DNA of 47,701 nt from a bacterium (GCA_018223105.1 JAAEYY010000011.1:1-47701), one strand, 5' to 3'; positions 1,446-36,384 are shown, counted from the stretch's first letter. Notes: generated by a model not told the origin, from the letters alone. Program-made: numbers and translations.

Positions 1446-1789
1446 CTGCTTCCTTAAAAAAACCTTAATTTTTTGTTGATTTATCCTCTCCTCAACCCCA
1501 AATCCCCCTTTTTACAACACTTCCATCCCAAAAAACTTTTTTAATTTTTTTTTCAGGCCTCCACTCTTTTCTCTGCAACTTCCATTTCCCGGGTTTCATT
1601 TAAACCCATTTTTGTCCTTTTTCAACCCAAAAATTCTTCTCATTTTTTTGAAATTATTTTAACTCTATCTCATTTGACGAAATAAAAAATAAAATCTATC
1701 CCAAATTCTTCTTCCTATTCTTCTCAAATTTTCACTTTTCATCCTAAAATTCTCATCGAATTCCTCCACCAAAAAATGTATTTTTGAGT
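1446..1789. other. AT-rich intergenic region, no gene seen
   Basis: About 340 bases between the distal rrn promoter and the start of the plus-strand gene at 1790. It is very AT-rich with homopolymer T/A/C runs. No tRNA, no clear promoter box for the plus-strand gene and no convincing coding frame was found. Confidence 0.5.
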
Positions 1790-2638
1790 ATGCCTCGATC
1801 CATCTTTTTCTGCTTTTATCTCCTATCTCTATTTTTTGCTTCTGCAGAAAATCCAAAAATCGATACACTCAATGCCGAAAAACTCGAAATTCTACTCGAA
1901 AAAACCCATCGTTACCTCAGTATAAAATTGTATGAAGCTGTCCGAACCGGAAAAATTGAAGGATATGCTGTTTACGATACTGCCATCCTTCTAGATAAAA
2001 ACGACCTCCTTTGCCTCGAACAACTCTCCTATAACAAAGACTCCAACATAATTAATATAGATATACCAAAGAGTTTTGCCGACCACGGCTGTTCCTGGGA
2101 GAACTATGGACCTAATAGCGGTACAGCAATTAAACTTTTAGCCGCAAATGAAGAAGATCCCGATCTTCCTAGGGCTATTGTTATATGCATGGAGAAAATG
2201 ATTGGCTTCGCCAGTTTTGGATTGATAGATAGAATTTATGTCCCAATTGAATCTTACAAAGACGTTTTAGATCCCTATGAATTAGAATATATTAAGGCTC
2301 TATATAAGGTATCTTCCAATACCGAATTCGAAATCCCTCCTATTGAAAGCTCAGATTCTCGAATCTACAGAACAAAGGATCTTGAAATAATTCCGCAATC
2401 TGCACTGTCTAATATGGTTTATCAGACTTTAATGATTGACTATATATATACTATGGGATTTCAATCTCAAGATTCATGCATGGGCACATTAATAGTGGAG
2501 AACAATCAGAAATCGATTCGTTTCAGTGTCGAATCCATACAATGCCATGATCCTAAAACCGTGATTCCGGCGAAAACTGCTAGCCTCAATCCTCAGCTCA
2601 CTGATTTAATAGCGCGCTGGAATAAGCTCTCTCAGTAA
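1790..2638 (+). CDS. Hypothetical secreted protein
   Basis: 282 aa, not recognised. The start is placed at ATG 1790 rather than the TTG two codons earlier; this gives an N-terminal signal peptide (MPRSIFFCFYLLSLFFASA, then ENPK). The mature part is soluble-looking, mixed alpha/beta, with several cysteines (for example around LLCLEQL, DHGCSW, QDSCMG and IQCHD) that could pair in the periplasm. No membrane segment after the signal and no lipobox. It is transcribed away from the rrn promoters and converges on the caspase gene, with the two stop codons overlapping by 7 bp. No function can be assigned; the protein is probably exported. Confidence 0.75.
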   Translation: MPRSIFFCFYLLSLFFASAENPKIDTLNAEKLEILLEKTHRYLSIKLYEAVRTGKIEGYAVYDTAILLDKNDLLCLEQLSYNKDSNIINIDIPKSFADHGCSWENYGPNSGTAIKLLAANEEDPDLPRAIVICMEKMIGFASFGLIDRIYVPIESYKDVLDPYELEYIKALYKVSSNTEFEIPPIESSDSRIYRTKDLEIIPQSALSNMVYQTLMIDYIYTMGFQSQDSCMGTLIVENNQKSIRFSVESIQCHDPKTVIPAKTASLNPQLTDLIARWNKLSQ

Positions 2639-5600
2639 ACCCAGAAAACATAATCGTACTGTAAATTCTCTACTCGGGTTGTTGGCTTCTGTGCGCCATG
2701 AGTTAGTTCTTCTACTTTCAATGCTACATACTTCTGCAGCTCCTCCAAAGCTATCTCACCATCTTGGTCGATATCTGCTGCTCCCGACTTCATTCCATCA
2801 ATCACAGCATAAGTAAATACACCATTATTCCATTGGTCGCCCTCCAAAGCATACTCAGCTCCTCCTGCGCTTGATATTATTGTTGCACCTGAGTTGGTTC
2901 TGAGATCATTGAACATCATCCTCATCAATGCAAAGACTTCATCCTGCTGCATCCCTCCGGTACTTTCTACAACTACACCTCTAACATCATTACGTACAAT
3001 CTGCGCTCCGGAAGAATCTGCTCTGACTTCCTCCTTATCTATTTCACCTGAATGGCATGCATCAATAAATACTGTTCGTGTTCTCGACCTCAATGTGCCA
3101 ATTTCTTCTTCCAAGAATGTGTAATTCAAACCGTGCTTCTCCGGTTTCTTAAATTTCATATCATAGGTGGCTAAGTAATAATTGAGATCTTCATCTAACA
3201 ATCCATGACCGGCTATATAAACTATGACATGGTCATACGCTTTTGCTTTGTCGAGTTTTTGTAGTGAGTTTGCAATGTTCTCGTTGGTGACCTCCGAGTT
3301 AATCAAAGTGTCAATAATTACATTGTTGTATTTAGAAGATTTAGAGTAGAAATCAACGAAGTCTCGAATGTCTTTTGCCGCATATGATAGATTATAGTCA
3401 TCATCTTTATACTCCGATGCACCTATACCTAATATATACAAGTCGGGCTTTACTTCAGCTGTATCAAAAAAGATGAATCGAGTTTCGCGATTGGACTGGA
3501 TGCCTTGAGTATTGGTGCACCACATTTGGATCTTGTTCATTCCCGGAGTGAGGGTTACATGGGTTATATTAATCAACATTGCGGTTGCCGTTCCTCCTAT
3601 AACCCGATTTCCATCTCTTCCATATATTGGCACTCCATTGATCGTTACAAATTCTGACTGAACACCGTACTCAAAGTCTGTCATAACATGATTCAATCCG
3701 AAATAAGAGGATGTAACCGTTTGATTCTTCGTCTTTACTTCAATGCTTGGTGCATCGTCTACAGTACTAAACTCACTTTCGGTTAAATTTAATTTCTGCA
3801 AACGTTTCTCTCTGGCCATTCTTAACGAATTAACAAGCGACTCAGAACCGGTGCTGAACAGCTCCAAGACCAAATCCGGACGATTTATCTGTATATCAAA
3901 TTGCTCAAAAGAGTAAAAGTTCGCCAGGGTATCCGAATGAAAAGACTGCTGAAAACCTAATCTTTGGCTACCCAATCTTGATGCAGCATAATACAAATCA
4001 TCCGTCCATAAAATCCATTCTCCATCATTTGATACAAAAAGCGTAGCTGCCGGGTTAACAATTGGATCATATTGTAAATCATATAATTCTAGCATGTATG
4101 CTTCACCTCTCTCCTCGAAAATAGCTTCTATTTTATCTGTGCCATAAGTTTCTTTGAGATCGCTAATCCACTCATCATAGGTTTTGGGTAGTTTACCCTG
4201 ATCAGATAAATCCCAGAAACAAATGGTTTGATCTGCGCTAGCTGAGACCATGTATCTATTATCCGCTGTGAAGGCTACTGAAAATACATCTCCATGATGT
4301 CCTCTATAAGTTCTTTTCACCTTGCCACTGGAGTCAAACACATTGAGGCCAAAAGTTGAACCAACGGCAATATCATTATTTGGCGTTAGCGAGTAACAAT
4401 TGATATAACCTTCGCGCCCAGGGTCTAGATTGATATAATGCTTATCAATGTTTATATCCAACAAAGACAGTTGATTTCTATTCACCATCTCCAAAATGAA
4501 GTTGTCCTTATGTGTATTTTCTGATTGATAAATACTGTCATCAATCTCTTGTTCAAGAAGCTGTAATGTATTTAAATCGAAGACTTTATTTAAACCACCA
4601 TAATCATTAACTCTTGGATATTCATGCCTATCTGTGCTAAAAGCAATGGTACCATCTGCTGAGGTCGCCACTTTCCAATTACGCAGCCCTTTACCAACAA
4701 AATGATTGTATACTTCACCTGTGTACAGATTCCAGACAAAGATATCTCGAGTACTTCCTCCGGCGGTGGCTACAATGCTATCACCAAAACATGCGGTCGC
4801 CATAACTGTATTATCATGACCCTGAAATGTGACCATCTTTGTTCCATCAGGAATACTATACGAAATCGCATTCTTTTGTTCGAGCTGACTTGTCCCAATT
4901 ACAATAGCTTTACCATCACCGGAAAAGCAAACGGAATGAACATCATTTAATCCTATATATTCTGTTTCAGGTAATTGGTCAATTTCCTTTAATAAGGTTC
5001 CAGTAGTATCATAGAGAAGAATACGATTATCATATCCAACTGTCACGAAATATTCTCCCGTTGGCGAGAATGCAGCATCCCTCAATTCTTCTGTATGATC
5101 TCTTAATACTGTTAATTTTGGTTTTCCGGAATTAAAAGTGGCTTCCAAATTCCAAAGTATTGCAGTTGAATCATAAGATGCACTAATTAAATATTTACCA
5201 TCCGGAGAAAATTGGGCTGCATAAACGGCGTCATTATGACCTGTTAACTTTGTTCCAGCCCCGTTTTTCAAGTTCCATACTCCTATATGACCATTTGAGC
5301 CTCCGCTGGCCAACATAGATTGATCTTGAGAAATGTCGAGAGAAACAACCGTAGATTGGTGGCCTCTGTATACAGACAATACATCGCCTGAATAAGTACT
5401 ATAGAATCTGATTTCACCGGCATTATCTTGATTCTCACCCAAATAACCGGCTACAGCGATGTAGTCACCATCGGGAGAAATTGCGCCTGAGTTTAACATT
5501 CCAACGTTACCCCTTTCACTATACCCTCTAAACGTATTTACCAACTCATCATAGTTCAAGTCCCACACTCGCACTGTCTTATCATCCGATACAGAATAAA

Positions 5601-5742
5601 GTTTGGATCCATCGGGTGAAAACATTAAAGCTTTAATATTTGCTCGATGCCCGCCGGGCTCAATTACAATTTGTATGTTACTATCTAGTTGACAAAAGGA
5701 TAAAAGCGGCCATAGCAAGGCCAGTAAACAGGTTGATCTCAT
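2632..5742 (-). CDS. Secreted WD40-repeat caspase-like (C14) protein with EF-hand
   Basis: 1036 aa. Signal peptide 1-18 (MRSTCLLALLWPLLSFCQ). Residues about 30-540 carry canonical WD40 repeats (for example HRANIKALMFSPDG...VRVWDL, HNDAVYAAQFSPDG...ILWNL, HHGDVFSVAF...ICFWDL), forming one or two beta-propellers. After a linker with an Ig-like strand region comes a caspase-fold domain (about 760-985), beginning KPDLYILGIGASEY, with His846 (YIAGHG) and Cys896 (FIDACHSGE) as catalytic dyad. A canonical EF-hand loop DIDQDGEIALEE lies at 990-1001, and the protein ends in a conserved-looking tail QKPTTR...FWVY. A paralogue with the same order lies at 32803-36384. Peptidase C14 membership is well supported; the substrate, calcium control and final location (periplasm or surface) are inference. 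Confidence 0.93.
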   Translation of the reverse strand: MRSTCLLALLWPLLSFCQLDSNIQIVIEPGGHRANIKALMFSPDGSKLYSVSDDKTVRVWDLNYDELVNTFRGYSERGNVGMLNSGAISPDGDYIAVAGYLGENQDNAGEIRFYSTYSGDVLSVYRGHQSTVVSLDISQDQSMLASGGSNGHIGVWNLKNGAGTKLTGHNDAVYAAQFSPDGKYLISASYDSTAILWNLEATFNSGKPKLTVLRDHTEELRDAAFSPTGEYFVTVGYDNRILLYDTTGTLLKEIDQLPETEYIGLNDVHSVCFSGDGKAIVIGTSQLEQKNAISYSIPDGTKMVTFQGHDNTVMATACFGDSIVATAGGSTRDIFVWNLYTGEVYNHFVGKGLRNWKVATSADGTIAFSTDRHEYPRVNDYGGLNKVFDLNTLQLLEQEIDDSIYQSENTHKDNFILEMVNRNQLSLLDINIDKHYINLDPGREGYINCYSLTPNNDIAVGSTFGLNVFDSSGKVKRTYRGHHGDVFSVAFTADNRYMVSASADQTICFWDLSDQGKLPKTYDEWISDLKETYGTDKIEAIFEERGEAYMLELYDLQYDPIVNPAATLFVSNDGEWILWTDDLYYAASRLGSQRLGFQQSFHSDTLANFYSFEQFDIQINRPDLVLELFSTGSESLVNSLRMAREKRLQKLNLTESEFSTVDDAPSIEVKTKNQTVTSSYFGLNHVMTDFEYGVQSEFVTINGVPIYGRDGNRVIGGTATAMLINITHVTLTPGMNKIQMWCTNTQGIQSNRETRFIFFDTAEVKPDLYILGIGASEYKDDDYNLSYAAKDIRDFVDFYSKSSKYNNVIIDTLINSEVTNENIANSLQKLDKAKAYDHVIVYIAGHGLLDEDLNYYLATYDMKFKKPEKHGLNYTFLEEEIGTLRSRTRTVFIDACHSGEIDKEEVRADSSGAQIVRNDVRGVVVESTGGMQQDEVFALMRMMFNDLRTNSGATIISSAGGAEYALEGDQWNNGVFTYAVIDGMKSGAADIDQDGEIALEELQKYVALKVEELTHGAQKPTTRVENLQYDYVFWVY

Positions 5743-23592: not shown

Positions 23593-24522
23593 TTAGATCT
23601 TATAAACCAGTTCCAGTTGATAATCCTTCAACCTCGCCTGAGCTTTTTCAAGATCCTGTGTAAATCCCAGGATATACCCTCCACCGCCTGATCCGCAAAG
23701 TTTGAGGTAATAATCTCCACTTTCAATTCCTTGCTTCCAAACTTCTTTGAACGATTCTGGAATCATTGGACTAAAGTTCTTAAGAAGCAATGTAGAAAGT
23801 TGCTTCAAATTGCTAAACAATGGATTGAAATCTCCCTTCAAGAATGATTTGATGCATGCATCGTTGTACTTCTTGAATTCGGTTTTAAGCATGTTTCTAA
23901 ATCCTTGCTCTTTCATCTTCTCCAAGAAAATCTGAACCATTGGTTGAGTTTCACCCGGAGATTGAGTATTGAGTAAGAAAATAGCTCCTTTTGCCTGTTC
24001 TTGCTGTTCAGGTAAACCTACCGTATTCAAATCTTCTTTAGAATTGATAATAACAGGAAGATTGAGGTAACAAATTAGAGGATCTAATCCTGAACTTTTG
24101 CCGTGGAAATACGATTCCATCTGACCAAAAATCGACTTCAAATTCATGAGGTCGTCTTTGTCTATGGATTCCGGATCAATTGTATTAACAGAGTATTTGT
24201 GGTAAACAGCAGCAACTAATGCACCTGAACTGCCTACGCCAAATCCTTGAGGAATTGAGGAATCAAAGGCAAGTCCTTTATTTAAGTCCTCCTCAAAAAG
24301 ATCGAAATCGATTTCGCAAAACAATTCACCTTTCTCATGTAATGATTTTAGGTAATTTTTAAACTTAACGATTTCTGCATTGGAGTGGGCATCTTCTTCT
24401 GTTCCGAAATGTAATTTACCCTGATAGAAATTATAGGGAATTGATAGACCCATGGCATCCTGAATAATTCCATACTCTCCAAAGAGTAGGATCTTACTGT
24501 AAAACATGGATTCTTTGATCAT
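23593..24522 (-). CDS. Mevalonate kinase (GHMP kinase)
   Basis: 309 aa. Phosphorylates mevalonate to 5-phosphomevalonate with ATP. GHMP motif 1 at the N-terminus (FYSKILLFGEYGII), motif 2 ATP loop QGFGVGSSGALVAAVY, and motif 3 LCGSGGGGYILGF near the C-terminus. The LLFGEYG start and the adjacent mvaD and HMG-CoA reductase genes make mevalonate kinase the best assignment. Start codon overlaps the mvaD stop by 4 bp (ATGA), so the two are translationally coupled. A role swap with the upstream GHMP kinase (26743-27642) cannot be excluded from sequence alone. Confidence 0.85.
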   Translation of the reverse strand: MIKESMFYSKILLFGEYGIIQDAMGLSIPYNFYQGKLHFGTEEDAHSNAEIVKFKNYLKSLHEKGELFCEIDFDLFEEDLNKGLAFDSSIPQGFGVGSSGALVAAVYHKYSVNTIDPESIDKDDLMNLKSIFGQMESYFHGKSSGLDPLICYLNLPVIINSKEDLNTVGLPEQQEQAKGAIFLLNTQSPGETQPMVQIFLEKMKEQGFRNMLKTEFKKYNDACIKSFLKGDFNPLFSNLKQLSTLLLKNFSPMIPESFKEVWKQGIESGDYYLKLCGSGGGGYILGFTQDLEKAQARLKDYQLELVYKI

Positions 24523-25550
24523 ATCAATTTATTGGGTCCTGAACCAATTCTATCACAAATATACAACCCATTTTGACAGTATTGCTTCAACTCCTTATCA
24601 ACAAAGCTTTTCGCGATTTGTTCATCCTCAGCGGGATATAAAAAATGAACATTGGCTCCTGCATCCAAAGTAAAGCACCATTTTCGCTTGTTTTTTCCTC
24701 GCTCTGCCCAGATCTTTTCAATGATTGCCAGCGTATTTGCTTTCATCAGAATGAAATACGGATCAGATGTCATCATTAATGCATGTAACATAAGTGCCTC
24801 GGATTCAACTACTTTCATAAATGAATCGAGGTCGCCATTTTCCAGTGCTGATTTAATCTTGCTCATATTTACTGTTGCAAGCTCAAATCGTTTTTCTCCG
24901 AAAGGATGGTTCTCAATCAAGGCATGACCAATAGTTGAACTCACTTCTTTCTGCCCGGAATCTACCAATAAAATTGTGTCGCAAAAATCTTTAAACAGTG
25001 GGCTAACATCTATAAATGGAGTGGCAAAGTCATCCGATGAGCCTTCAAAATCATAGTGTCTTCCCCATTCAGCAAGAGGAGCATAAATAGATCTGCAAGC
25101 ACTTCCACTTCCCAATCGCGCAATTTCTGAAGCTTTGCTCATCATTTCCGATTCTTGAAGTTCATGGCGCTGAACTGCAATATCACAAATACACAAAGCG
25201 AGGGCACTCATAGAACTGGCACTGCTGGCAATGCCGGTACCATAAGGAAACGTGTTTTTTGTATCGATATGAATAAGCGAAGTATCTAACCATGGGAACT
25301 GCTCCGCTATCCGATCAAAGAAGGTTTCAATTTTTGGAAGAAAATCCGGTTTTAAGTCTCCATCTAACCAAATCTTCACCTCTCGTTGTTCTGCCGGACT
25401 CACATCAATAGCGGTTATTGTTTTACTCTCACTTAAAGTGAAACTAATTGAAGCATTAGCAGGCAATTGGACCCCTTCCGGCTGTTTGCCCCAATATTTC
25501 ACAAGGGCTATATTGGAGGGACTCTCCCATTTAGATCTTAAGGTCGACAT
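24519..25550 (-). CDS. mvaD: Diphosphomevalonate decarboxylase
   Basis: 343 aa. ATP-dependent decarboxylation of mevalonate-5-diphosphate to IPP. Diagnostic N-terminus SPSNIALVKYWGK (11-22), Ser-rich ATP loop PYGTGIASSASSMSALAL (102-119), ARLGSGSACRS, and the C-terminal FTLDAGANVHFLYP, where the Asp corresponds to the catalytic aspartate of the family. Full length. It starts 6 bp after the stop of the AAA ATPase gene and overlaps the mevalonate kinase start, so ATPase, mvaD, kinase and prenyltransferase are probably one transcript. Confidence 0.96.
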   Translation of the reverse strand: MSTLRSKWESPSNIALVKYWGKQPEGVQLPANASISFTLSESKTITAIDVSPAEQREVKIWLDGDLKPDFLPKIETFFDRIAEQFPWLDTSLIHIDTKNTFPYGTGIASSASSMSALALCICDIAVQRHELQESEMMSKASEIARLGSGSACRSIYAPLAEWGRHYDFEGSSDDFATPFIDVSPLFKDFCDTILLVDSGQKEVSSTIGHALIENHPFGEKRFELATVNMSKIKSALENGDLDSFMKVVESEALMLHALMMTSDPYFILMKANTLAIIEKIWAERGKNKRKWCFTLDAGANVHFLYPAEDEQIAKSFVDKELKQYCQNGLYICDRIGSGPNKLI

Positions 25551-25556
25551 ATTATT

Positions 25557-26684
25557 CTATTTCAGATACCATTTTCTAAACCATAGTGCGAAGCCGGGAT
25601 CTAGGAATAGAGGATTACCTTCAAAATAATCCAAGACTTCCTTTTGTTCCAGGGCTTCTTTTATACGTTTTATGTTTCCAATGGAACCTAAATTGTAATT
25701 TTTTAAATTCTTCTTTTTATAAAACTGAGTCACGCCTTCAGTTAGGGCGCGAAGGTATTCAATCTGATGTGCAGATAAATCATCAATAATCTTACGATAG
25801 AGAATTTGGTTTTGATACAGCATTATTTCAACCGCTTGATCAAGTTCTTTTTTACCCGCATGTCTATCGCAGTTTAAAAAAGTAACATAGGCCAATTGCT
25901 GAACGTAATAACTATGGCAATCCATTAAATCCGCTATCTCTTCTGCCACATTTTCATCTACACTTTTATTAAACAATAAAAATCGTTTTTGGATATAGGA
26001 GGTCCATTCTTTTTTTTCAATCTTAGAAAGGAACATCAGGTCGCCAAAACCATAAAAGGGTAGGTTTTGCTCCGTAAAAAAGCGATTCATTAAACTCCGT
26101 TTGCTACCGTAAAGAATATAGTTCACCGCAGAATGATGTTGCCAATGAGACCTCAATAGTTTTTGCAGCTCATAGTCCTTATCAAAATCAGCCAGGTTCT
26201 GAAACTCATCAATACACATTACAATGGTTTTGCCCTTTTCCTCGGCCAACTTCTGAGGCAGTTCCAAAATCTCAGATTCCGGCACTTCGTCGTCTCTCCA
26301 ACTTAATTTAAAAGAAAGTTCAGCATTGGGGTCCGGCGATAAAGATAATTCAGGTATGAGCTTTGAAAAGAAAGTTTGAATAGACCGGATCAACTCATCC
26401 GACTTCGTTTCTGTGGCTTTAAGAACAGCGGAAGCATAATGCTCAAAGAACTGTTTTCTACTTGCTACGCGAAATAAATCGAGAAAAACGAAGATTACTT
26501 CGCCCTTGGAGAATGAATCCGTTGCTTTATGCACCAATGAAGTCTTACCCCATCTACGAGGTGATATCACCACCGTATTTACTCCATGTTCAATATTGGT
26601 ACTGAGACGTTTTAATTCTGCCTTTCTATTGAGAAAAACGCGTCTGTTGACCACCGTGCCGAAGTAAAAAGGCTGCTCCTTCAT
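25557..26684 (-). CDS. AAA+ ATPase of the archaeal-type ATPase_2 family
   Basis: 375 aa from ATG 26684; a TTG three codons earlier is rejected since it overlaps the -7 box. Walker A is ISPRRWGKTSL (about 40-50, Ser in place of the first Gly, as often in this family), Walker B IVMCIDEFQNL, then a sensor-like stretch YILYGSKRSLM and a C-terminal helical, probably winged-helix part (about 290-375). No membrane segment. Relatives are single-chain STAND-like ATPases of unknown role, sometimes paired with toxins or nucleases, none of which is seen here. It is an unexpected member of the mevalonate operon and has its own promoter overlaid by repeats. Confidence 0.88.
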   Translation of the reverse strand: MKEQPFYFGTVVNRRVFLNRKAELKRLSTNIEHGVNTVVISPRRWGKTSLVHKATDSFSKGEVIFVFLDLFRVASRKQFFEHYASAVLKATETKSDELIRSIQTFFSKLIPELSLSPDPNAELSFKLSWRDDEVPESEILELPQKLAEEKGKTIVMCIDEFQNLADFDKDYELQKLLRSHWQHHSAVNYILYGSKRSLMNRFFTEQNLPFYGFGDLMFLSKIEKKEWTSYIQKRFLLFNKSVDENVAEEIADLMDCHSYYVQQLAYVTFLNCDRHAGKKELDQAVEIMLYQNQILYRKIIDDLSAHQIEYLRALTEGVTQFYKKKNLKNYNLGSIGNIKRIKEALEQKEVLDYFEGNPLFLDPGFALWFRKWYLK

Positions 26685-26690
26685 TACACA

Positions 26691-26721
26691 CAAATGTATT
26701 ATACATTTATGTATTATACAA
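26691..26721 (-). promoter_or_regulatory. Promoter of AAA ATPase gene (TTG-N20-TACATTTG)
   Basis: Minus-strand -7 box TACATTTG (26691-26698) and TTG (26719-26721) with a 20-base spacer, both matching the Bacteroidetes consensus. The box ends 6 bases before ATG 26684, so the mRNA would start almost at the start codon. It is one of the few boxes outside the rrn leader with a well-placed -33 element. Confidence 0.7.
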
Positions 26722-26734
26722 GTTAGTACTATAC
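26692..26734. repeat. Operator-like array: 17-bp palindrome and repeats at 15-bp spacing
   Basis: Perfect palindrome AAATGTATTATACATTT at 26692-26708. Its core GTATTATAC (26696-26704) recurs at 26711-26719 and, with one change, as GTACTATAC at 26726-26734; centres are 26700, 26715 and 26730, i.e. exactly 15 bp apart. The array covers the -7 box, spacer and -33 element of the ATPase promoter. This is what a cooperative repressor site would look like; the regulator is not identified. Confidence 0.65.
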
Positions 26735-26742
26735 ATTAATGT

Positions 26743-27642
26743 TTAGTACTTGATGAGGTCTTTATAACTCAAAACCACTGAATATCCGGCATTTTTAAAG
26801 TATTGTTCAGAACCATCTTCGGCGCAAACCAGAATAAAATCGCCGCCCCAAGCTCCCAATGACTTGATGGCAAATGGATAATCTTTAAAATGCTCCGTCT
26901 TTACAGGGTTTAGACCTGTAACTTTCGAGATGAGCTGCTCGTGCTCCGAAACCAATTTTTGAAACTCCTTAAAATCATCGGTCCCAACAATAGATCGAGT
27001 AAGTTCACTACAAGTTTCAATATCTGATAATTCAACTTCCTTTTCTTTAAAACTCGAAATAGCGTCTCTGCTATTCTTCTTCCGGCCTAAATACACAAAG
27101 AAAAGTTGATCTCGAAATGAAGGTTGATATACAAAGCTATCCCAAGCAGGCGGTCGACTATAAATCAGCTCACTGCCCACCATACCGACTGCGATATCCA
27201 CTCCGCTCCCGCCTAAACTGGCATCCGACAGTGCAAAAGCATTGGTCTCCGACCATTTTGCGATATTGCAAATAAGAGTGCTGCTGCTGCCCAAGCCCCA
27301 AGAACGATCAAAGTCCAATTTCGTTTCAACTTCAAAACCACTATTTTGAGCTAAAAATTCAGGATTCTGGTTTCGGGCTTCAATCAAAAGCTTTTGAATA
27401 GTCTTGGCAACCTCTGCATCAGTGCTATTTACAATAGCCATTGTAGGAACATCCAATTCAGCCACAAACCAAACTTCATCCTTAAGGTCTTTTGCTGTCC
27501 ACATAAGTTTACCATATGAATCTGAATCACGGACTACCAAGCTTTGTCCGGGCTTAGTTGGAAGTGCAAAGGCTTCAGCTCCACGCAAGACTAAATACTC
27601 GCCTGTAATCAATAATTTACCATGAGAAAAGAAACGGTTCAT
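26743..27642 (-). CDS. GYDIA-type GHMP kinase, candidate phosphomevalonate kinase
   Basis: 299 aa. GHMP fold: motif 1 HGKLLITGEYLVLRGAEAFA, motif 2 WGLGSSSTLICNIAKW, and the segment GGSGVDIAVG, which corresponds to the GSGYDIA motif that names this flavobacterial family, with Val instead of Tyr. The C-terminal motif is SLGAWGGDFILVC. The operon encodes HMG-CoA reductase, mevalonate kinase and diphosphomevalonate decarboxylase but no obvious phosphomevalonate kinase, so this protein probably fills that step (inference). It lies 68 bp after the HMG-CoA reductase gene; a near-match -7 box TACTTTCG lies at 27650-27657. Confidence 0.82.
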   Translation of the reverse strand: MNRFFSHGKLLITGEYLVLRGAEAFALPTKPGQSLVVRDSDSYGKLMWTAKDLKDEVWFVAELDVPTMAIVNSTDAEVAKTIQKLLIEARNQNPEFLAQNSGFEVETKLDFDRSWGLGSSSTLICNIAKWSETNAFALSDASLGGSGVDIAVGMVGSELIYSRPPAWDSFVYQPSFRDQLFFVYLGRKKNSRDAISSFKEKEVELSDIETCSELTRSIVGTDDFKEFQKLVSEHEQLISKVTGLNPVKTEHFKDYPFAIKSLGAWGGDFILVCAEDGSEQYFKNAGYSVVLSYKDLIKY

Positions 27643-27710
27643 TCCATTGCGAAAGTAGAGCAGGCGGTGAAAGCAGCAAAAGAAAATTAGTCGCTGTTCA
27701 GGTTGGAAGC

Positions 27711-29042
27711 TTATTTTAAAACTTCTCCGCCTCGTAATCGCTTAAAAGCAGAGACAACTTCCGCATGATGCGGTGTATGATTTATGAAGTACTTTACGAT
27801 GGTTTGTTTCTCGTCTTCAGTCGCTTCCAACTGATTCAAGATATTCAGAAGATGCATTTTCATATGCCCTTTTTGAATGCCGGTAGTGGTTAAGCTTCTT
27901 AGTGCAGAGAAATTCTGTGCAAGTCCTACAGATGCAGCAACTTGCATCAATTCTTCTGCTCCCGGATGACCCATCATCTCTAAACCGAATTTCACCATAG
28001 GATGCAATGTTGTAATTCCACCCACAGTTCCCAAAGACATTGGGACCTCGATCCAAAAACGAAATTCTCCGTCACTCATATCGGCATGAGTCAAGCTTTG
28101 ATAAGAGCCATTTCGCGCAGCATAGGCATGAGCGCATGCTTCTACTGCTCTAAAATCATTGCCACTGGCGATGATTACAGAGTCAATTCCATTCATGATC
28201 CCTTTATTGTGTGTCACTGCTCTATAAGGCTGAGTTTCTGCAATCTTAACTGCAGTTGTAAATCGCTCGGCAAAAGCCTCCGGTGCTATATCTGTACCCT
28301 CAACCATTTGTGCAATGGGTGTTCGAACTTCTGATCGAACCAAGCTCTCCGGTGTGTAATTACTCAAAATGCACATCACCACTTCAATCTCAGCAGGAGA
28401 TAAATTGCTCTTTGCAACTTCCTCTTTCAAGACATCTGCAAATTTCTCTAAGCAGGTATTGATGAAGTTCGCCCCCATACTGTCACAAGTATCAAATCGC
28501 GCTTCAAGCTGATAATAATTCGGGATATCCGAAGTCTTATCAACCAATTCAATACTCAATATACCCCCTCCTCTTTTGCGCATATTCTCAGTTACTTGAG
28601 AAGTGGCTTCGTAGAATTTGGAGTTGATATCAGTTATCAATTTCTTGAGCTCAGCTTTGTTCTCTCCTTCCCAAAGGAAATGCACATGGCCAATTTTAAC
28701 CATACTTAGCACTTCCGCCTTAAATCCACCTTTGTTGTACCAAAAGTTTGCCGACTTGGCCGCTGCAGCAACCACCGAACTTTCTTCAATGGACATTGGA
28801 ACTGTATAGTTCTTTCCATTGATCAAGAAATTAGGTGCAATACCAAAGGGAAGATAGAAATTCGTTAGCGTGTTTTCTATGAACTCATCGTGCAATTTCT
28901 GCAGTTTCGCGTCTTCATTCCAATAGGTTTTCAAGGTTGCTAATGCTTGTTCCGAATCATTGAAATATTCCTGAACCAACCATTCAATTTTTGCTTCCTT
29001 GCTCAGTTTTGAAAAACCCTTGATGTATTTAGTATCTCCCAT
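27711..29042 (-). CDS. HMG-CoA reductase, class II type
   Basis: 443 aa. Interconverts HMG-CoA and mevalonate; here, with the rest of the pathway beside it, surely acting in the biosynthetic direction. Class II features: no membrane anchor, catalytic Glu in VPMSIEESSVVAAAA (about 81-95), DSMGANFINTCLE, Lys in VTHNKGIMNGID, Asp in GNDFRAVEACAHAYAARNG, and the mobile-flap histidine in GIQKGHMKMHLLNIL. Length fits the class (about 430). Starts 3 bp after the stop of the IPP isomerase gene, so the two are in one operon. Confidence 0.95.
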   Translation of the reverse strand: MGDTKYIKGFSKLSKEAKIEWLVQEYFNDSEQALATLKTYWNEDAKLQKLHDEFIENTLTNFYLPFGIAPNFLINGKNYTVPMSIEESSVVAAAAKSANFWYNKGGFKAEVLSMVKIGHVHFLWEGENKAELKKLITDINSKFYEATSQVTENMRKRGGGILSIELVDKTSDIPNYYQLEARFDTCDSMGANFINTCLEKFADVLKEEVAKSNLSPAEIEVVMCILSNYTPESLVRSEVRTPIAQMVEGTDIAPEAFAERFTTAVKIAETQPYRAVTHNKGIMNGIDSVIIASGNDFRAVEACAHAYAARNGSYQSLTHADMSDGEFRFWIEVPMSLGTVGGITTLHPMVKFGLEMMGHPGAEELMQVAASVGLAQNFSALRSLTTTGIQKGHMKMHLLNILNQLEATEDEKQTIVKYFINHTPHHAEVVSAFKRLRGGEVLK

Positions 29043-29045
29043 TTC

Positions 29046-30044
29046 CTATCTCACCTTTAAAAATTTATTGGCCAATTTTAAGCCCTCAATTTGATTATGT
29101 ACGTATTGTCTTAATTCTTCGTATTCACCCCGAGCATGTTTCAAGAACCCGGATGCTTGACCATAAATAGCATTTGCCACAATTTTCTCCGTGAGGTAAT
29201 ATCCGTCTATGAAGCCTTTAACACCACCGCTGATAATGATATCAGCATTAGTATTACGGTCTCCTAATTCTTCTGCAAGACAATTATAAAACCCCACCAT
29301 TTCTTCGGCAGTATGTCCCCAATGTGAAACCCCGTCGAATGCTTCATGCTCAATATTGCTTCTTCTAAACATCTCAAGCTTGCTGAAATTAGTTCCGCCG
29401 TGAGCACCAAAGTCGATAGCAGTAAGTGGAAGCTTCATCAATGCTTTCAAGCTTTCCGGACCAAAACCCTGACCAACTTCTTTCACAATCACATTTACCC
29501 CTAATTCCAACATTGCTTCTATTGCCTGCAAAGGTGCTCTTTGGAACCGATCGCCTTCCGGCTGCAACCACTCTTGCAATGGGTTAACATGAACAATTAA
29601 ACCATCCGTTTCCGTTTTATTGATTAACTCTTTTACAAGATTCAGCTTCCCTTGATCTTGCAGTTCCTCAATTTGTGCAATACCGAGGTTGGCAAATAGA
29701 GACTGATTTGGCATTAAAGATCTGAGTTGAAAATCTTTTAAATAGGTATCATCTTCAAGGATGATTCGGCAGGAACCCAAGCCCATTCCAAGTCCATATT
29801 CACCGCAGACTTTTGCTAGATTTTTATTGATATGGCCTGCTTCTTTTGTCCCACCGGTCATGCTGCTTACCCAAATTGGTGCTGACAATTTCTTGCCCGA
29901 AAACTCAACTGATAAGTCGTCGTTGGCAGGATGACCCGTAAAAAGAGGCTCGTAGTAAAAACGTGGATCCGTTCCCTTCACCACAGAATCAAATGCCAAT
30001 TCTATATGATCTTTTTTTCTTTCGGATGTGTTTGTATGTCCCAA
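29046..30044 (-). CDS. fni: Type 2 isopentenyl-diphosphate delta-isomerase
   Basis: 332 aa. FMN- and NADPH-dependent isomerase converting IPP to DMAPP. TIM-barrel of the IDI-2 family: N-terminal RKKDHIELAFDSV, WVSSMTGGT, GLGSCR, HVNPLQEWLQPEG, KEVGQGFG, DFGAHGGTNFS, IISGGVKGFIDGYYL and YGQASGFLKHA. The frame has no ATG upstream of the conserved N-terminus; the start is TTG at 30044, with an in-frame stop a few codons before. Transcribed together with HMG-CoA reductase. Confidence 0.95.
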   Translation of the reverse strand: MGHTNTSERKKDHIELAFDSVVKGTDPRFYYEPLFTGHPANDDLSVEFSGKKLSAPIWVSSMTGGTKEAGHINKNLAKVCGEYGLGMGLGSCRIILEDDTYLKDFQLRSLMPNQSLFANLGIAQIEELQDQGKLNLVKELINKTETDGLIVHVNPLQEWLQPEGDRFQRAPLQAIEAMLELGVNVIVKEVGQGFGPESLKALMKLPLTAIDFGAHGGTNFSKLEMFRRSNIEHEAFDGVSHWGHTAEEMVGFYNCLAEELGDRNTNADIIISGGVKGFIDGYYLTEKIVANAIYGQASGFLKHARGEYEELRQYVHNQIEGLKLANKFLKVR

Positions 30045-30086
30045 TGCTACAATTTATCTAATCGGTAAATAACAATTCTATAAGTC

Positions 30087-30905
30087 TTAAGTTTGAATGC
30101 TCACGCGATATCCGGCATGACTCCTTACATTCAGTACGGAACCATCCGTAAAAATCAGGTATTGACCTTTAATACCCATAAGCTCTTTTTCTATTAGAGG
30201 CACTTTATCTAGTTTCATGCTTTTCACTTTCTCCGGATAGTGAAGTACAGGATATTCTATTTGAGTGATTTCCGGATTATCGGTCAGATATTGTTTCAGT
30301 TCACCCGGCACATGCGAAGCCATTTCATCTCTCACTTCAATTATATCCATTGGGTTTTCAATGATGCCTTTCAGCATCTTCTGCCAATGCGTTTTATCTG
30401 CGATATGCGATTTAAGCGATACTTCGATCAAACCTGCTAATTGACGATAAGGAACTTCAGCTAAGCGTACGGCTTTCACTGCACCTTGATCAATCCAGCG
30501 ATAGGGAATATTAGTATCTCGAGTAACTCCCACCTTATATCCATTGGTCAGCGAGATATAAACCACATGCGGTTGCATATGATGTTTCATCTCCCAATCG
30601 TAATCGCGGAGCGCTACACCTTCGTGAATTCTGCTGAGTTCGGGGCGAATAATACTCGGACTTGCCATTGGACTTTCCATAAACTCCTTGTATGTCAACC
30701 CTTCACCGTAGGCTTTCTTCATTTTTTCACCGGAAAGCACAGAGTTTATATAGCCTTTGTATTCAATTTGAATGGTTTTACCGATGAGCGGATTAAACGA
30801 AATCGCATCCACCGGGGTGAGTATATCGTGAACGGGCAGAGTGTATTCAACTTTACCTTGGTTCAACTCAGTATCAAACATTCTAAGGTTTCCCTCAATT
30901 TGCAT
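30087..30905 (-). CDS. DUF2797 domain protein
   Basis: 272 aa, soluble. Recognised by the DUF2797 core: SIIRPELSRIHEGVALRDYDWE, HHMQPHVVYISLTNGYKVGVTR, YRWIDQGAVKAVRLAEVPYRQLAG and LKSHIADKTHWQKML. No cysteine pairs are present. The function of the family is not known. It lies 42 bp upstream of fni on the same strand and could be the first gene of the operon, though a separate unit is possible because fni has its own short upstream region. Confidence 0.85.
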   Translation of the reverse strand: MQIEGNLRMFDTELNQGKVEYTLPVHDILTPVDAISFNPLIGKTIQIEYKGYINSVLSGEKMKKAYGEGLTYKEFMESPMASPSIIRPELSRIHEGVALRDYDWEMKHHMQPHVVYISLTNGYKVGVTRDTNIPYRWIDQGAVKAVRLAEVPYRQLAGLIEVSLKSHIADKTHWQKMLKGIIENPMDIIEVRDEMASHVPGELKQYLTDNPEITQIEYPVLHYPEKVKSMKLDKVPLIEKELMGIKGQYLIFTDGSVLNVRSHAGYRVSIQT

Positions 30906-32802: not shown

Positions 32803-35800
32803 TTACCAGATTACAAAATCAAATTCGGCCATGGCAGCTCTTGACGTAGGTTTTTGGAATCCATCGGTCATGTCTTCCACCTGCCTGCTTACGTAATTTA
32901 GAAGTTCAAGCACGGAAACCGACTCATCTTGGTTCAAGTCACCATTATACCCATTCTCAAATGTGTTGGTATTAATCGCCCTTAAGAAAGTCCAGTATTC
33001 GTGTTCATCAATAATTCCATTTCGGTTTAAATCCATTTCATCTTTGCTTATTGAATAAACCTCCTCGTCATTGGATTTTCGCAGCGACTGTAATATACAA
33101 TAGGTGAAAACTCCATTTTTCCATTCGCTACTTTCAAGGGCATAGCTATTTCCTGCTGCAGCGGCAATTACGTAAATTCCACTGCCTCTGCTCACATCGG
33201 CAAAGACCTCTTTCATCAACTCAAAACTATTCTGCAGACCTAATTTTGGTTCTTCTTCATTTACAAAAACCCCTCTCGCACCATCAACCAAATCATGATG
33301 TTTTGGATGATCAGTAGCTGTTTTGTCTACTTCGCCGCTATGGCAGGCATCCATTAATAAAATTCTCTGTCTGGAAGGCGATGATTTCAATACCTGCTCA
33401 AGCAAGTCATATGAAATACCTCGTGCTCTTGGATCCTTAAAGTCTATATCATTCCCGGCATAATAAAAATTCAAATCATCATCCAAGACACCGTGTCCTG
33501 CCACGTACAAGATCACTCTATCCTCGAGTTTAGCACCTTGGAAGAAGTCAGCCACTTTTGACAGGTTTTCCAATTTTACATCTTGATCAAATAAAGAGTC
33601 GATAAAAACATTTCCATATCGATATACATCTTCTTGAATATTACCGTCGAAGTCTTGGTAACCTTCCAACAAAAGTCGATTCTGCTTTGCAGCATTCAGA
33701 ATGTCCCTGCCGTCTTTTCTAGCATATTTCAAATCATAACGATCATCTTGGTAATCACTTACCCCAATAGCAAAAACGTATAAATCAGGTTGAATTTCCT
33801 TTTCCGGAAGGTATGTTATGTTTTGTACTATTGTTTTTGAGCGTATACCGAGTTCATTTTCACAAAAAATCTCAATAATATTTTCCCCTGCACCTAGTTC
33901 AAAAGGCAGGTATATCCTAAAGCGGTTCAAATTATTGGAATCAGATAAGGGATTCTTCAAATTCCTAAACATCATAGCCATATCAAACATTGAGCTAATC
34001 TCTGTTGTAGGCATTTTACTGATAAGTGGGTTGGCTTTAAAGTATTCTAAAAGCTCCTTATGATGCCATTCATAAACAGGCACACCGTTGATATAGGCAT
34101 ATAGCTTATCTATTTCAGATGAAGAACTATTGGCATGAAACAATAAGCCAATTTCTTGTCTTGAAGTGACTCTAGTGGCACTATCCATTCCAAAAAACTC
34201 AGGCCTTGACTTTGGGTCAAATATGTCTTCATTGAAACTATACTTCTCTGATCTTTTCTCAAATACTCGATGCATCAATTCAATAAAATCAGAATCAGTA
34301 GACCCTATTTCTTCGAGAATAACGTGGGGTCTGTTAAAAAATAAATCGTAATGACTCAGCGGAACAATTTTTCCCAATTCGTTAAATGAAACGAGTTGAT
34401 ATGCATTCTTATCTGATTTATAAAAACAGTCATCATTGTAAATCACCCAACTTTCTATAATACCTTTAGAACTATGAATCAATAGCTTAAGTTCACTATC
34501 TCCTTTTCTAATTAAACATTCTCCATTTCTGAAACCAAAGTAAAATGCTCCTGATGAGTCTGCATCAAAATCATAAAGCTCTGATCTTGTAAATTCTTGA
34601 TGAGACAATTCTTCGCCATTTTCAATAATGTAATATCGAGCTACATGGTCATTCAAAATCAGACCAAATTGCCCATTAGATAAGCGCTTAAACTTTGAAT
34701 CTGATTGATTAAAAAGACTTGTAGCTTTTAAATACTTCCCAGAACCGGGATAATAATGTAATGCATAATCACCTAGAACATAAAAACGTCCATCCTTATC
34801 TAAGTGAATACTTTTTCCATAGACCAAAGGATAGCGCTTCGACATTCTTGTTTTGCCGAGCTTGTATCGAGAAATACCCTCTTTATCTAAGACATATACA
34901 CCTGTCTCATCTAGAGCAAAATCCAAAATTGGTGCTTTATGTTCTATTATCAGCTTTTGCCCTTCATCGTGCATATAGATCTTAGTAGAGTCTGATGCAT
35001 ATGTATAGTATAGTTGGTTATTGTAGAAAGCTAAATCGCTGAGCTTATTGCTAGGATCAAAAGGCAAAGCATTCACAATTTGATTAGAATTTGAATTATA
35101 GGTAAAGGCATTCCACAATAAGTTCTCATTCCTTAAATTTTGAACCTGCAAATAGAACAGTCCTTGATCTCTATTATAAAGAAACCGACTAGGATTTAAT
35201 GGAATGTTGAAATCTGCTTCTACTTCTGCTTTATTAAGATCATAGGACCATAGTGCATCAGAATTTGATAGATATAATTTTCCATTTGCAGACAGCAATT
35301 GCTTTACCGACGCTAATCCTGGCCCAAACTCTTTCGTTATTCTAAACATATCGTCTTCATAGGTGTATTCTAGGATGTTAGATCGACATCCAATTATAAC
35401 ATCCTTGACAGAATAATTTGAATGTGCGTAAAGAGCATCACTATAGTCTCCTAGCGCATCAACAAGTGGCTTTAAGACACCGGGTTCAGAGAGTTTTGAA
35501 ATACATTCACCAAAAACAATTTCGTCATTGTCATCATTGTAGGCCAATTGATTGTACTTAATAAAATAACGCTCTTTACTATGCTTTAATGCAAATAGTC
35601 CAGGGTTTGTTGAATCTATCCAACGATCTAATCTCGTAACTTTTCCTGTAAGAGCGATGTGATAAAAACTTTTTTCGGTAGCAACAAGTAGAGCCTCAGC
35701 AATCATCCTCTTACCTTCAATATACTTTAGATTTAAAACCTTACCGTCGCTATTGTTTAAATAATACCTTCTGAAACTGTACGTAGAATATTCTGTAGAT

Positions 35801-36384
35801 TTATGATGAGTTATAACCCCATTATTAGCCGTAAAAATCTGTGTGGCATATTCATCATAACACGTCGCTTCCGCTGTATCTAGCCCATTTACTGGAAATC
35901 TTTTAAACTCTTGTTTATTATCATAATTCAATAATATTCGTTCCTTGGTGGTATGCACCTGCAATACCTTGCCATATTTGTTTAGTGACTTGGCGCTATT
36001 GTAATAATTTACCGTCACATTAATTACCGAATCAGAAAAGCTAAATTGAGATATTAGAGTATCAGCATTGTAATCGTAAAACAAAAGCTTTTTATCGCGA
36101 TATGAAGAAACTACTATAAAATATTCTCCAACACCGCCAAAAGCTTGGATGAAATTAATTCGGCTGATATTGAGTTGTATTCTTTTTAGTAATCGTTTGC
36201 TTTTCAATTCCCACTGATGCACATTACCCATATTATCAGCAGTGAAAACATGAGTAAACTTAGGATCTTGGCACATAGCTGTAATATCAGCCCCATGTCG
36301 CAGTTGAGGAACTATATCAGGCCTTTGTGCATTGAGCACAAAAGTGAAACTTATGAATAAAAGTATGCTTAAATATCTACTCAT
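32803..36384 (-). CDS. Secreted propeller-caspase (C14) protein with two EF-hands
   Basis: 1193 aa. Signal peptide MSRYLSILLFISFTFVLNAQ. The N-terminal ~650 residues are repeated beta strands of propeller type (for example HVFTADNMGNVHQWELKSKR), far more degenerate than the WD40 repeats in the paralogue at 2632-5742. The caspase domain begins near QPDLYVFAIGVSDY, with His964 (YVAGHG) and Cys1014 (LMDACHSGE). EF-hand loop DLNRNGIIDEHE lies at 1118-1129 and a second, less regular one DLNQDESVSVLE at 1149-1160. The tail QKPTSR...FDFVIW matches the paralogue. The His-to-Cys distance is 50 residues in both. Probably an exported, possibly calcium-responsive protease; substrate unknown. Confidence 0.9.
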   Translation of the reverse strand: MSRYLSILLFISFTFVLNAQRPDIVPQLRHGADITAMCQDPKFTHVFTADNMGNVHQWELKSKRLLKRIQLNISRINFIQAFGGVGEYFIVVSSYRDKKLLFYDYNADTLISQFSFSDSVINVTVNYYNSAKSLNKYGKVLQVHTTKERILLNYDNKQEFKRFPVNGLDTAEATCYDEYATQIFTANNGVITHHKSTEYSTYSFRRYYLNNSDGKVLNLKYIEGKRMIAEALLVATEKSFYHIALTGKVTRLDRWIDSTNPGLFALKHSKERYFIKYNQLAYNDDNDEIVFGECISKLSEPGVLKPLVDALGDYSDALYAHSNYSVKDVIIGCRSNILEYTYEDDMFRITKEFGPGLASVKQLLSANGKLYLSNSDALWSYDLNKAEVEADFNIPLNPSRFLYNRDQGLFYLQVQNLRNENLLWNAFTYNSNSNQIVNALPFDPSNKLSDLAFYNNQLYYTYASDSTKIYMHDEGQKLIIEHKAPILDFALDETGVYVLDKEGISRYKLGKTRMSKRYPLVYGKSIHLDKDGRFYVLGDYALHYYPGSGKYLKATSLFNQSDSKFKRLSNGQFGLILNDHVARYYIIENGEELSHQEFTRSELYDFDADSSGAFYFGFRNGECLIRKGDSELKLLIHSSKGIIESWVIYNDDCFYKSDKNAYQLVSFNELGKIVPLSHYDLFFNRPHVILEEIGSTDSDFIELMHRVFEKRSEKYSFNEDIFDPKSRPEFFGMDSATRVTSRQEIGLLFHANSSSSEIDKLYAYINGVPVYEWHHKELLEYFKANPLISKMPTTEISSMFDMAMMFRNLKNPLSDSNNLNRFRIYLPFELGAGENIIEIFCENELGIRSKTIVQNITYLPEKEIQPDLYVFAIGVSDYQDDRYDLKYARKDGRDILNAAKQNRLLLEGYQDFDGNIQEDVYRYGNVFIDSLFDQDVKLENLSKVADFFQGAKLEDRVILYVAGHGVLDDDLNFYYAGNDIDFKDPRARGISYDLLEQVLKSSPSRQRILLMDACHSGEVDKTATDHPKHHDLVDGARGVFVNEEEPKLGLQNSFELMKEVFADVSRGSGIYVIAAAAGNSYALESSEWKNGVFTYCILQSLRKSNDEEVYSISKDEMDLNRNGIIDEHEYWTFLRAINTNTFENGYNGDLNQDESVSVLELLNYVSRQVEDMTDGFQKPTSRAAMAEFDFVIW

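Follow-up and report, generated by a model that had tools for sequence, protein, structure and literature searches.

Caspase homologues of bacteria are usually presented as cytoplasmic proteins that do without calcium and are associated with cell death. In a 47,701-nucleotide stretch of bacterial DNA (hereafter the window), a gene had been predicted to encode an exported protein combining WD40 repeats, a caspase-fold (C14) domain and an EF-hand. We asked what kind of C14 protein this is, and whether calcium might bear on its activity.

Gene, domain order and export

The original prediction proved mostly right, with strand, domain position and paralogue count to be corrected. Indeed, the open reading frame is real and spans exactly 2632-5742, but it is read on the minus strand, from 5742 down to 2632, and encodes 1036 amino acids, the plus-strand frame over the same interval being full of stops. 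Its ATG start is fixed, since a stop sits just upstream. A whole-protein AlphaFold model (36-sequence alignment; pLDDT 81, pTM 0.74) showed, in order, a signal-peptide helix, propeller strands, helices 522-557, closing strands, helices 616-659, an all-beta stretch 666-759 and the C14 domain from residue 768 (Table 1). The gene end overlaps by 7 bases a convergent gene (1784-2638, plus strand) for an exported 284-residue protein with no Pfam match.

Table 1. Coordinates of the WD40-C14 gene and its features in the window
Feature	Positions	Strand	Basis
ORF, 1036 aa: signal peptide, WD40 propellers, helical linker, probably Ig-like domain, C14 caspase domain	2632..5742	-	
Signal peptide, residues 1-17, predicted cut before Gln18	5692..5742	-	Sequence; family N-termini; predicted helix 2-16
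WD40 beta-propeller region, residues 22-515	4198..5679	-	PF00400; model strands; Foldseek
Helical linker, QFD...NRPD motif, residues 516-660	3763..4197	-	Invariant residues; model helices
All-beta domain, residues 661-760, probably Ig-like	3463..3762	-	Model strands 666-759; Ig label inferred
C14 caspase-fold domain, residues 766-1034	2641..3447	-	PF00656; AlphaFold; Foldseek
Catalytic His846	3205..3207	-	H in 83/83
Catalytic Cys896	3055..3057	-	C in 83/83
Asp791, predicted S1-pocket acid, aligned to Asp95 of TbMC2	3370..3372	-	D in 83/83
Asp894, predicted second S1-pocket acid, equivalent of TbMC2 Asp211	3061..3063	-	D in 83/83
Variable low-confidence p20-p10 type linker, residues 897-950, after catalytic Cys	2893..3054	-	pLDDT; identity
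Arg921, conserved linker base, candidate autocleavage site	2980..2982	-	R/K column; cleavage inferred
EF-hand-type loop DIDQDGEIALEE, residues 990-1001	2740..2775	-	Ligand conservation; modelled helix-loop-helix

The N-terminus is hydrophobic (MRSTCLLALLWPLLSFC followed by Q), and the short signal peptide ends LLSFC/QLD. This fits the Q-rule for Bacteroidetes, Gln after the signal-peptide cut (PMC5837995). In at least 74 of 82 relatives, a simple heuristic recognises a signal-peptide-like N-terminus whose first residue past the predicted cut is Gln, which upholds the signal peptide first proposed. No lipobox was found in the N-terminus, and a T9SS C-terminal sorting domain is absent: the chain stops where the C14 domain does, and no CTD family was matched. 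The periplasm would be the simplest location for such a sequence. Export of a propeller-fused C14 protein had been presented as a different setting, but this was overstated. Fourteen of 24 Bacteroidota C14 proteins with a readable N-terminus looked exported by a heuristic, and a survey from 2012 counted 46 metacaspases with an N-terminal helix that is probably a signal peptide and named WD40 as the commonest partner domain of bacterial C14 (PMC3501461). At least 458 related stretches occur in named public genomes, and thus exported WD40-C14 proteins are not unusual in Bacteroidota.

The predicted WD40 propeller was borne out by a Pfam search (PF00400, E=1.6e-50, residues ~25-515), by the modelled strands, whose number fits about two propellers, and by Foldseek, which matched the full model to seven-bladed and double propellers, including 2ymu, 7bie (seven-bladed, TM 0.93) and 1nr0 (double). 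This region diverges fastest, with a mean identity of 19% versus 43-52% on the two sides of the post-Cys linker. The following linker (516-660), helical at 522-557 and 616-659 in the model, has invariant D616, N620, R621 and D623; no Pfam family was found for it, and it is possibly a new domain. Some proteins of the broader exported WD40-C14 group share its QFD...NRPD motif. The all-beta domain after it is, from the model, probably Ig-like.

Caspase-fold domain and active site

A profile search and a structure prediction, both suggested as checks at the outset, recovered the caspase domain. Peptidase_C14 (PF00656) matched residues 773-1027 with 52.9 bits, versus a cut-off of 21.4. Modelled alone on 63 sequences, the domain gave pLDDT 84.9 and pTM 0.85, with pLDDT of at least 95 across much of the core and the EF region. 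Its best Foldseek matches were MALT1, plant metacaspase 9 and bacterial 3bij (E about 1e-9). A sequence search against solved structures yielded weak metacaspase matches only.

Conservation was counted over 83 aligned family members, and since most of these were picked for closeness to the query, the figures given here are inflated. His846 and Cys896, the dyad reported as intact, are indeed present and invariant (83/83), and so are Asp791 and Asp894. In a profile alignment to metacaspases, Asp791 pairs with the Asp of the L-x-G-C-x-N-D motif (LRGC.ND), while Asp894 sits two residues ahead of the catalytic Cys. In TbMC2, Asp95 and Asp211 are the aspartates that hold basic P1 residues (PMC6426788); acidic S1-pocket residues accommodate a basic P1 (PMC6426788, PMC5756287), and Arg or Lys at P1 is preferred by all characterised C14 enzymes except animal caspases (PMC5756287). 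The invariance of Asp791 and Asp894 therefore predicts a protease with Arg/Lys specificity.

About 140 residues follow Cys896; in the model, their helices and strands are integral to the caspase fold and form a p10-like half. The linker just past Cys896 was modelled as disordered (pLDDT <50 at 901-940 and 942-949), and its identity is 26% versus 43% and 52% on its flanks. Within it, the Arg921 column holds R in 69/83 and K in 10/83 members (R/K in 79/83), often as F-R-[G/A/N]. A conserved base at the place where caspases are cut suggests self-cleavage, and makes Arg921 a candidate site.

EF-hand-type loop and the question of calcium

A canonical EF-hand had been announced at residues 990-1001, after the caspase domain. 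The loop does exist (DIDQDGEIALEE, a DxDxDG loop with Glu at position 12, flanked by helices 975-986 and 999-1013), and the helix-loop-helix was modelled with pLDDT of about 95. Its placement was wrong, however. The last C14 strand (1032-1035) comes after the loop and helix 999-1013, and the Pfam match extends to 1027; lying between the last two helices and before the last strand, the loop is inside the C14 domain. Ligand positions 1, 3, 5 and 12 are all acceptable in 81/83 relatives, with Asp1 in 81/83, Glu12 in 83/83 and Gly6 in 55/83 rows. A strict EF motif arises in 1% of shuffled versions of the query protein, but the retention of the ligands in 81/83 homologues rules out a chance origin. 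Moreover, column entropies showed positions 1, 3, 5, 8 and 12 to be conserved and the intervening ones to be variable, a pattern of selection for a metal site. From these alignments, the loop is very probably a selected calcium site.

Other Bacteroidota C14 subfamilies mostly have no EF loop. In the sampled proteins of the broader exported WD40-C14 group, no EF-type loop was found, so calcium is not needed for the WD40-C14 architecture as such. A paralogue in the window (win2; 32803-36384, minus strand) has EF-type loops at residues 1118-1129 and 1149-1160, namely the family loop without Gly6 and, 31 residues upstream of it, an inserted canonical loop (DLNRNGIIDEHE). Win2 may thus carry an EF-hand pair.

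It had been reasoned that metacaspases need calcium and that the EF-hand would therefore exert control, but this link does not carry over. Metacaspases have their calcium sites in p20 and in the 280-loop of p10 (PMC5756287), whereas the motif found here is an EF-type helix-loop-helix, so the link is not one of homology. The sequence alignment to metacaspases spans p20 stretches only. Calcium control of activity is nonetheless plausible.

We propose, with a confidence of about 0.58, that the gene encodes an exported, Arg/Lys-cutting C14 endopeptidase with propeller docking, maturation at Arg921 and a one-calcium site on the p10 side. What the computation shows of this reading is the fold, the dyad, the acidic S1 residues, the export signal, and the fact that both the calcium ligands and the basic linker residue are conserved. 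The protein would be made with a Sec signal peptide and exported, probably to the periplasm, where its C14 domain would act as a caspase-fold cysteine endopeptidase cutting after Arg or Lys. The WD40 propellers would dock a partner or substrate; they vary between paralogues, and we therefore suggest that every copy has a target of its own to watch. The C14 domain would mature or open through a cut at Arg921, in the disordered linker. The single EF-type helix-loop-helix would bind one calcium and hold the p10-like half in its active shape. The envelope being rich in calcium, a signalling switch is less likely than a structural ion, or than one that licenses the protein to act only once it is outside. 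Against this reading stand the sub-threshold Pfam scores of the EF-hand, the loss of Gly6 in about a third of members, the two members devoid of the ligand set, and the broader WD40-C14 group in which no such loop was found. We also considered a bolder version, in which the protease is off in the low-calcium cytoplasm, is licensed by calcium and cleaves itself at Arg/Lys once exported, interchangeable propellers choosing its targets; this is a tentative and rather doubtful idea.

The alternatives differ mainly in what they make of the loop. One of them, to which we would give even chances, keeps the same exported protease, but with a purely structural, always filled calcium loop and an activity set by propeller-bound partners. 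It is in line with the sampled C14 proteins bearing the loop, which also look exported by the heuristic (bar one ORF with a broken N-terminus), and with one member (G005_C5) that lost the loop yet keeps its dyad. It sits less well with ligands that are almost invariant over deep divergence, and with the location of the loop in the p10-like half, where metacaspases also bear a calcium-related loop (PMC5756287). That the loop is an EF-hand look-alike with a packing role only, binding no calcium, seems unlikely, because conserved positions separated by variable ones are the signature of ligand selection, and because win2 bears a second canonical loop. Several observations nevertheless speak for it: EF-hand scores are below the Pfam gathering thresholds (PF00036, 19.3 versus 25.4 bits; PF13202, 18.2 versus 25.9 bits), Lys, Asn, Asp or Gln stands in place of Gly6 in about a third of members, and the loop is single and unpaired in the query. 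In addition, G005_C5 retains Glu12 (Glu1001) though the rest of its loop is gone, and thus this residue may have another role.

A third alternative questions export itself and takes the protein for a caspase effector that is cytoplasmic or of an immune type, either EACC1-associated or a defence caspase, with the N-terminal helix as a membrane anchor. Weak matches to NF047832 and PDLC02987 point that way. We consider it very improbable, since NF047832, the EACC1-associated caspase family, scored 76.2 bits against a cut-off of 140, and PDLC02987 scored 31 bits, far below membership. Furthermore, the neighbours of the gene are housekeeping genes (a bestrophin-type channel, an ABC-F protein and AICARFT), no relatives were found in viral contigs, and the heuristic predicts cleavable signal peptides family-wide. 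Assignment to a defence system was likewise rejected, the PADLOC and NCBIfam matches being too weak.

Set against known systems, and retaining the exported C14 endopeptidase, the best reading is a variant of the bacterial orthocaspases that would be envelope-located, Arg/Lys-specific and propeller-guided, with a calcium site on the p10 side. Bacterial orthocaspases and metacaspases (MEROPS C14; MaOC1, 3bij) share the caspase fold, the His/Cys dyad, the acidic S1 residues (here D791 and D894) and a frequent WD40 partner. The query differs in being exported and in carrying an EF-type loop in its p10-like half. It also departs from the definition of orthocaspases as p20 only, with no p10 half, by the residues that follow Cys896. 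The studied orthocaspase is reported to autoprocess without added calcium (PMC5756287), and a review calls bacterial orthocaspases calcium-independent. Eukaryotic metacaspases (TbMC2, AtMC4, AtMC9) resemble the query in fold, S1 aspartates and predicted cleavage of the post-Cys linker, but have no propellers, and their calcium sites are of the other kind described above. The MALT1 paracaspase, the best Foldseek match, also has an Ig-like domain beside its caspase domain; its Ig3 however comes after that domain, and it has neither calcium loop nor export. EF-hand motifs are reported in seven archaeal orthocaspases (PMC6426788), which thus combine C14 and EF-hand in one chain; that paper mentions no WD40. 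Other exported Bacteroidota WD40-C14 proteins (L190, L193 and L198 among them; ~1040-1150 aa) share with the query a signal peptide, a similar length, a C-terminal C14 domain and, in many cases, the linker motif, but no EF-type loop was found in them. A literature search covering few subscription journals found no paper on the Bacteroidota WD40-C14 family, on its calcium-type loop or on any assay. What is noteworthy here is that a large exported family carries a calcium-type loop, almost invariant, inside its protease domain, along with acidic S1 residues and a conserved basic linker residue as a candidate site of self-cleavage. This combination makes calcium licensing of an envelope caspase homologue directly and cheaply testable.

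Paralogues, neighbours and family spread

The gene had been described as the first of two paralogues. In fact, the genome holds five C14 genes, four of them with the WD40-C14 architecture, and the two copies in the window are distant (35% identity in the C-terminal part) and are not sisters in the tree. The tree places the query gene, on weak support, among relatives from several Bacteroidota. The other two WD40-C14 copies belong to a cluster of genes for exported proteins on contig 42 (L092, contig C42, 4100-16858). It opens with an OMP-like protein and a lipoprotein, continues with four predicted exported proteases in a row (WD40-C14, a short C14 protein of 663 aa, a trypsin-like protein with ankyrin repeats, and WD40-C14) and closes with a second lipoprotein.

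When 198 genomes were sampled evenly across the phylum, only 15 (including the query genome) had a match at E <1e-20, indicating that the family is widespread but patchy. Nearly all of the 78 loci retrieved came either from Bacteroidota MAGs or from cultured genera, environmental ones such as Leeuwenhoekiella, Reichenbachiella, Lutibacter and Crocinitomix. Two members, labelled as belonging to a Thermoplasmatota MAG (L161) and a Delongbacteria MAG (L140), possibly lie on mis-binned contigs. In L096:2246-5605, a relative in genome G001, the signal peptide is in a separate upstream ORF, possibly through a frameshift or an assembly error. A viral origin was rejected on the search of viral contigs mentioned above.

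We also looked for a conserved operon partner of the query gene and rejected the idea, its neighbours being housekeeping genes and its closest relative (L101, 57%) adjoining cytochrome c peroxidase-like genes. A promoter scan returned sites no more numerous than in shuffles. A VWA-like lipoprotein or an outer-membrane-like protein is adjacent in a few relatives only. Upstream lipoproteins of similar size in L105, L109, L113 and L137 had no VWA match; VWA-like lipoproteins are encoded directly upstream of WD40-C14 genes at L154:3302-4294 and L141:2169-3134. Elsewhere in the window, positions 24519-30905 (minus strand) hold, by sequence reading, a mevalonate-pathway cluster (decarboxylase, kinases, HMG-CoA reductase and type 2 isomerase).
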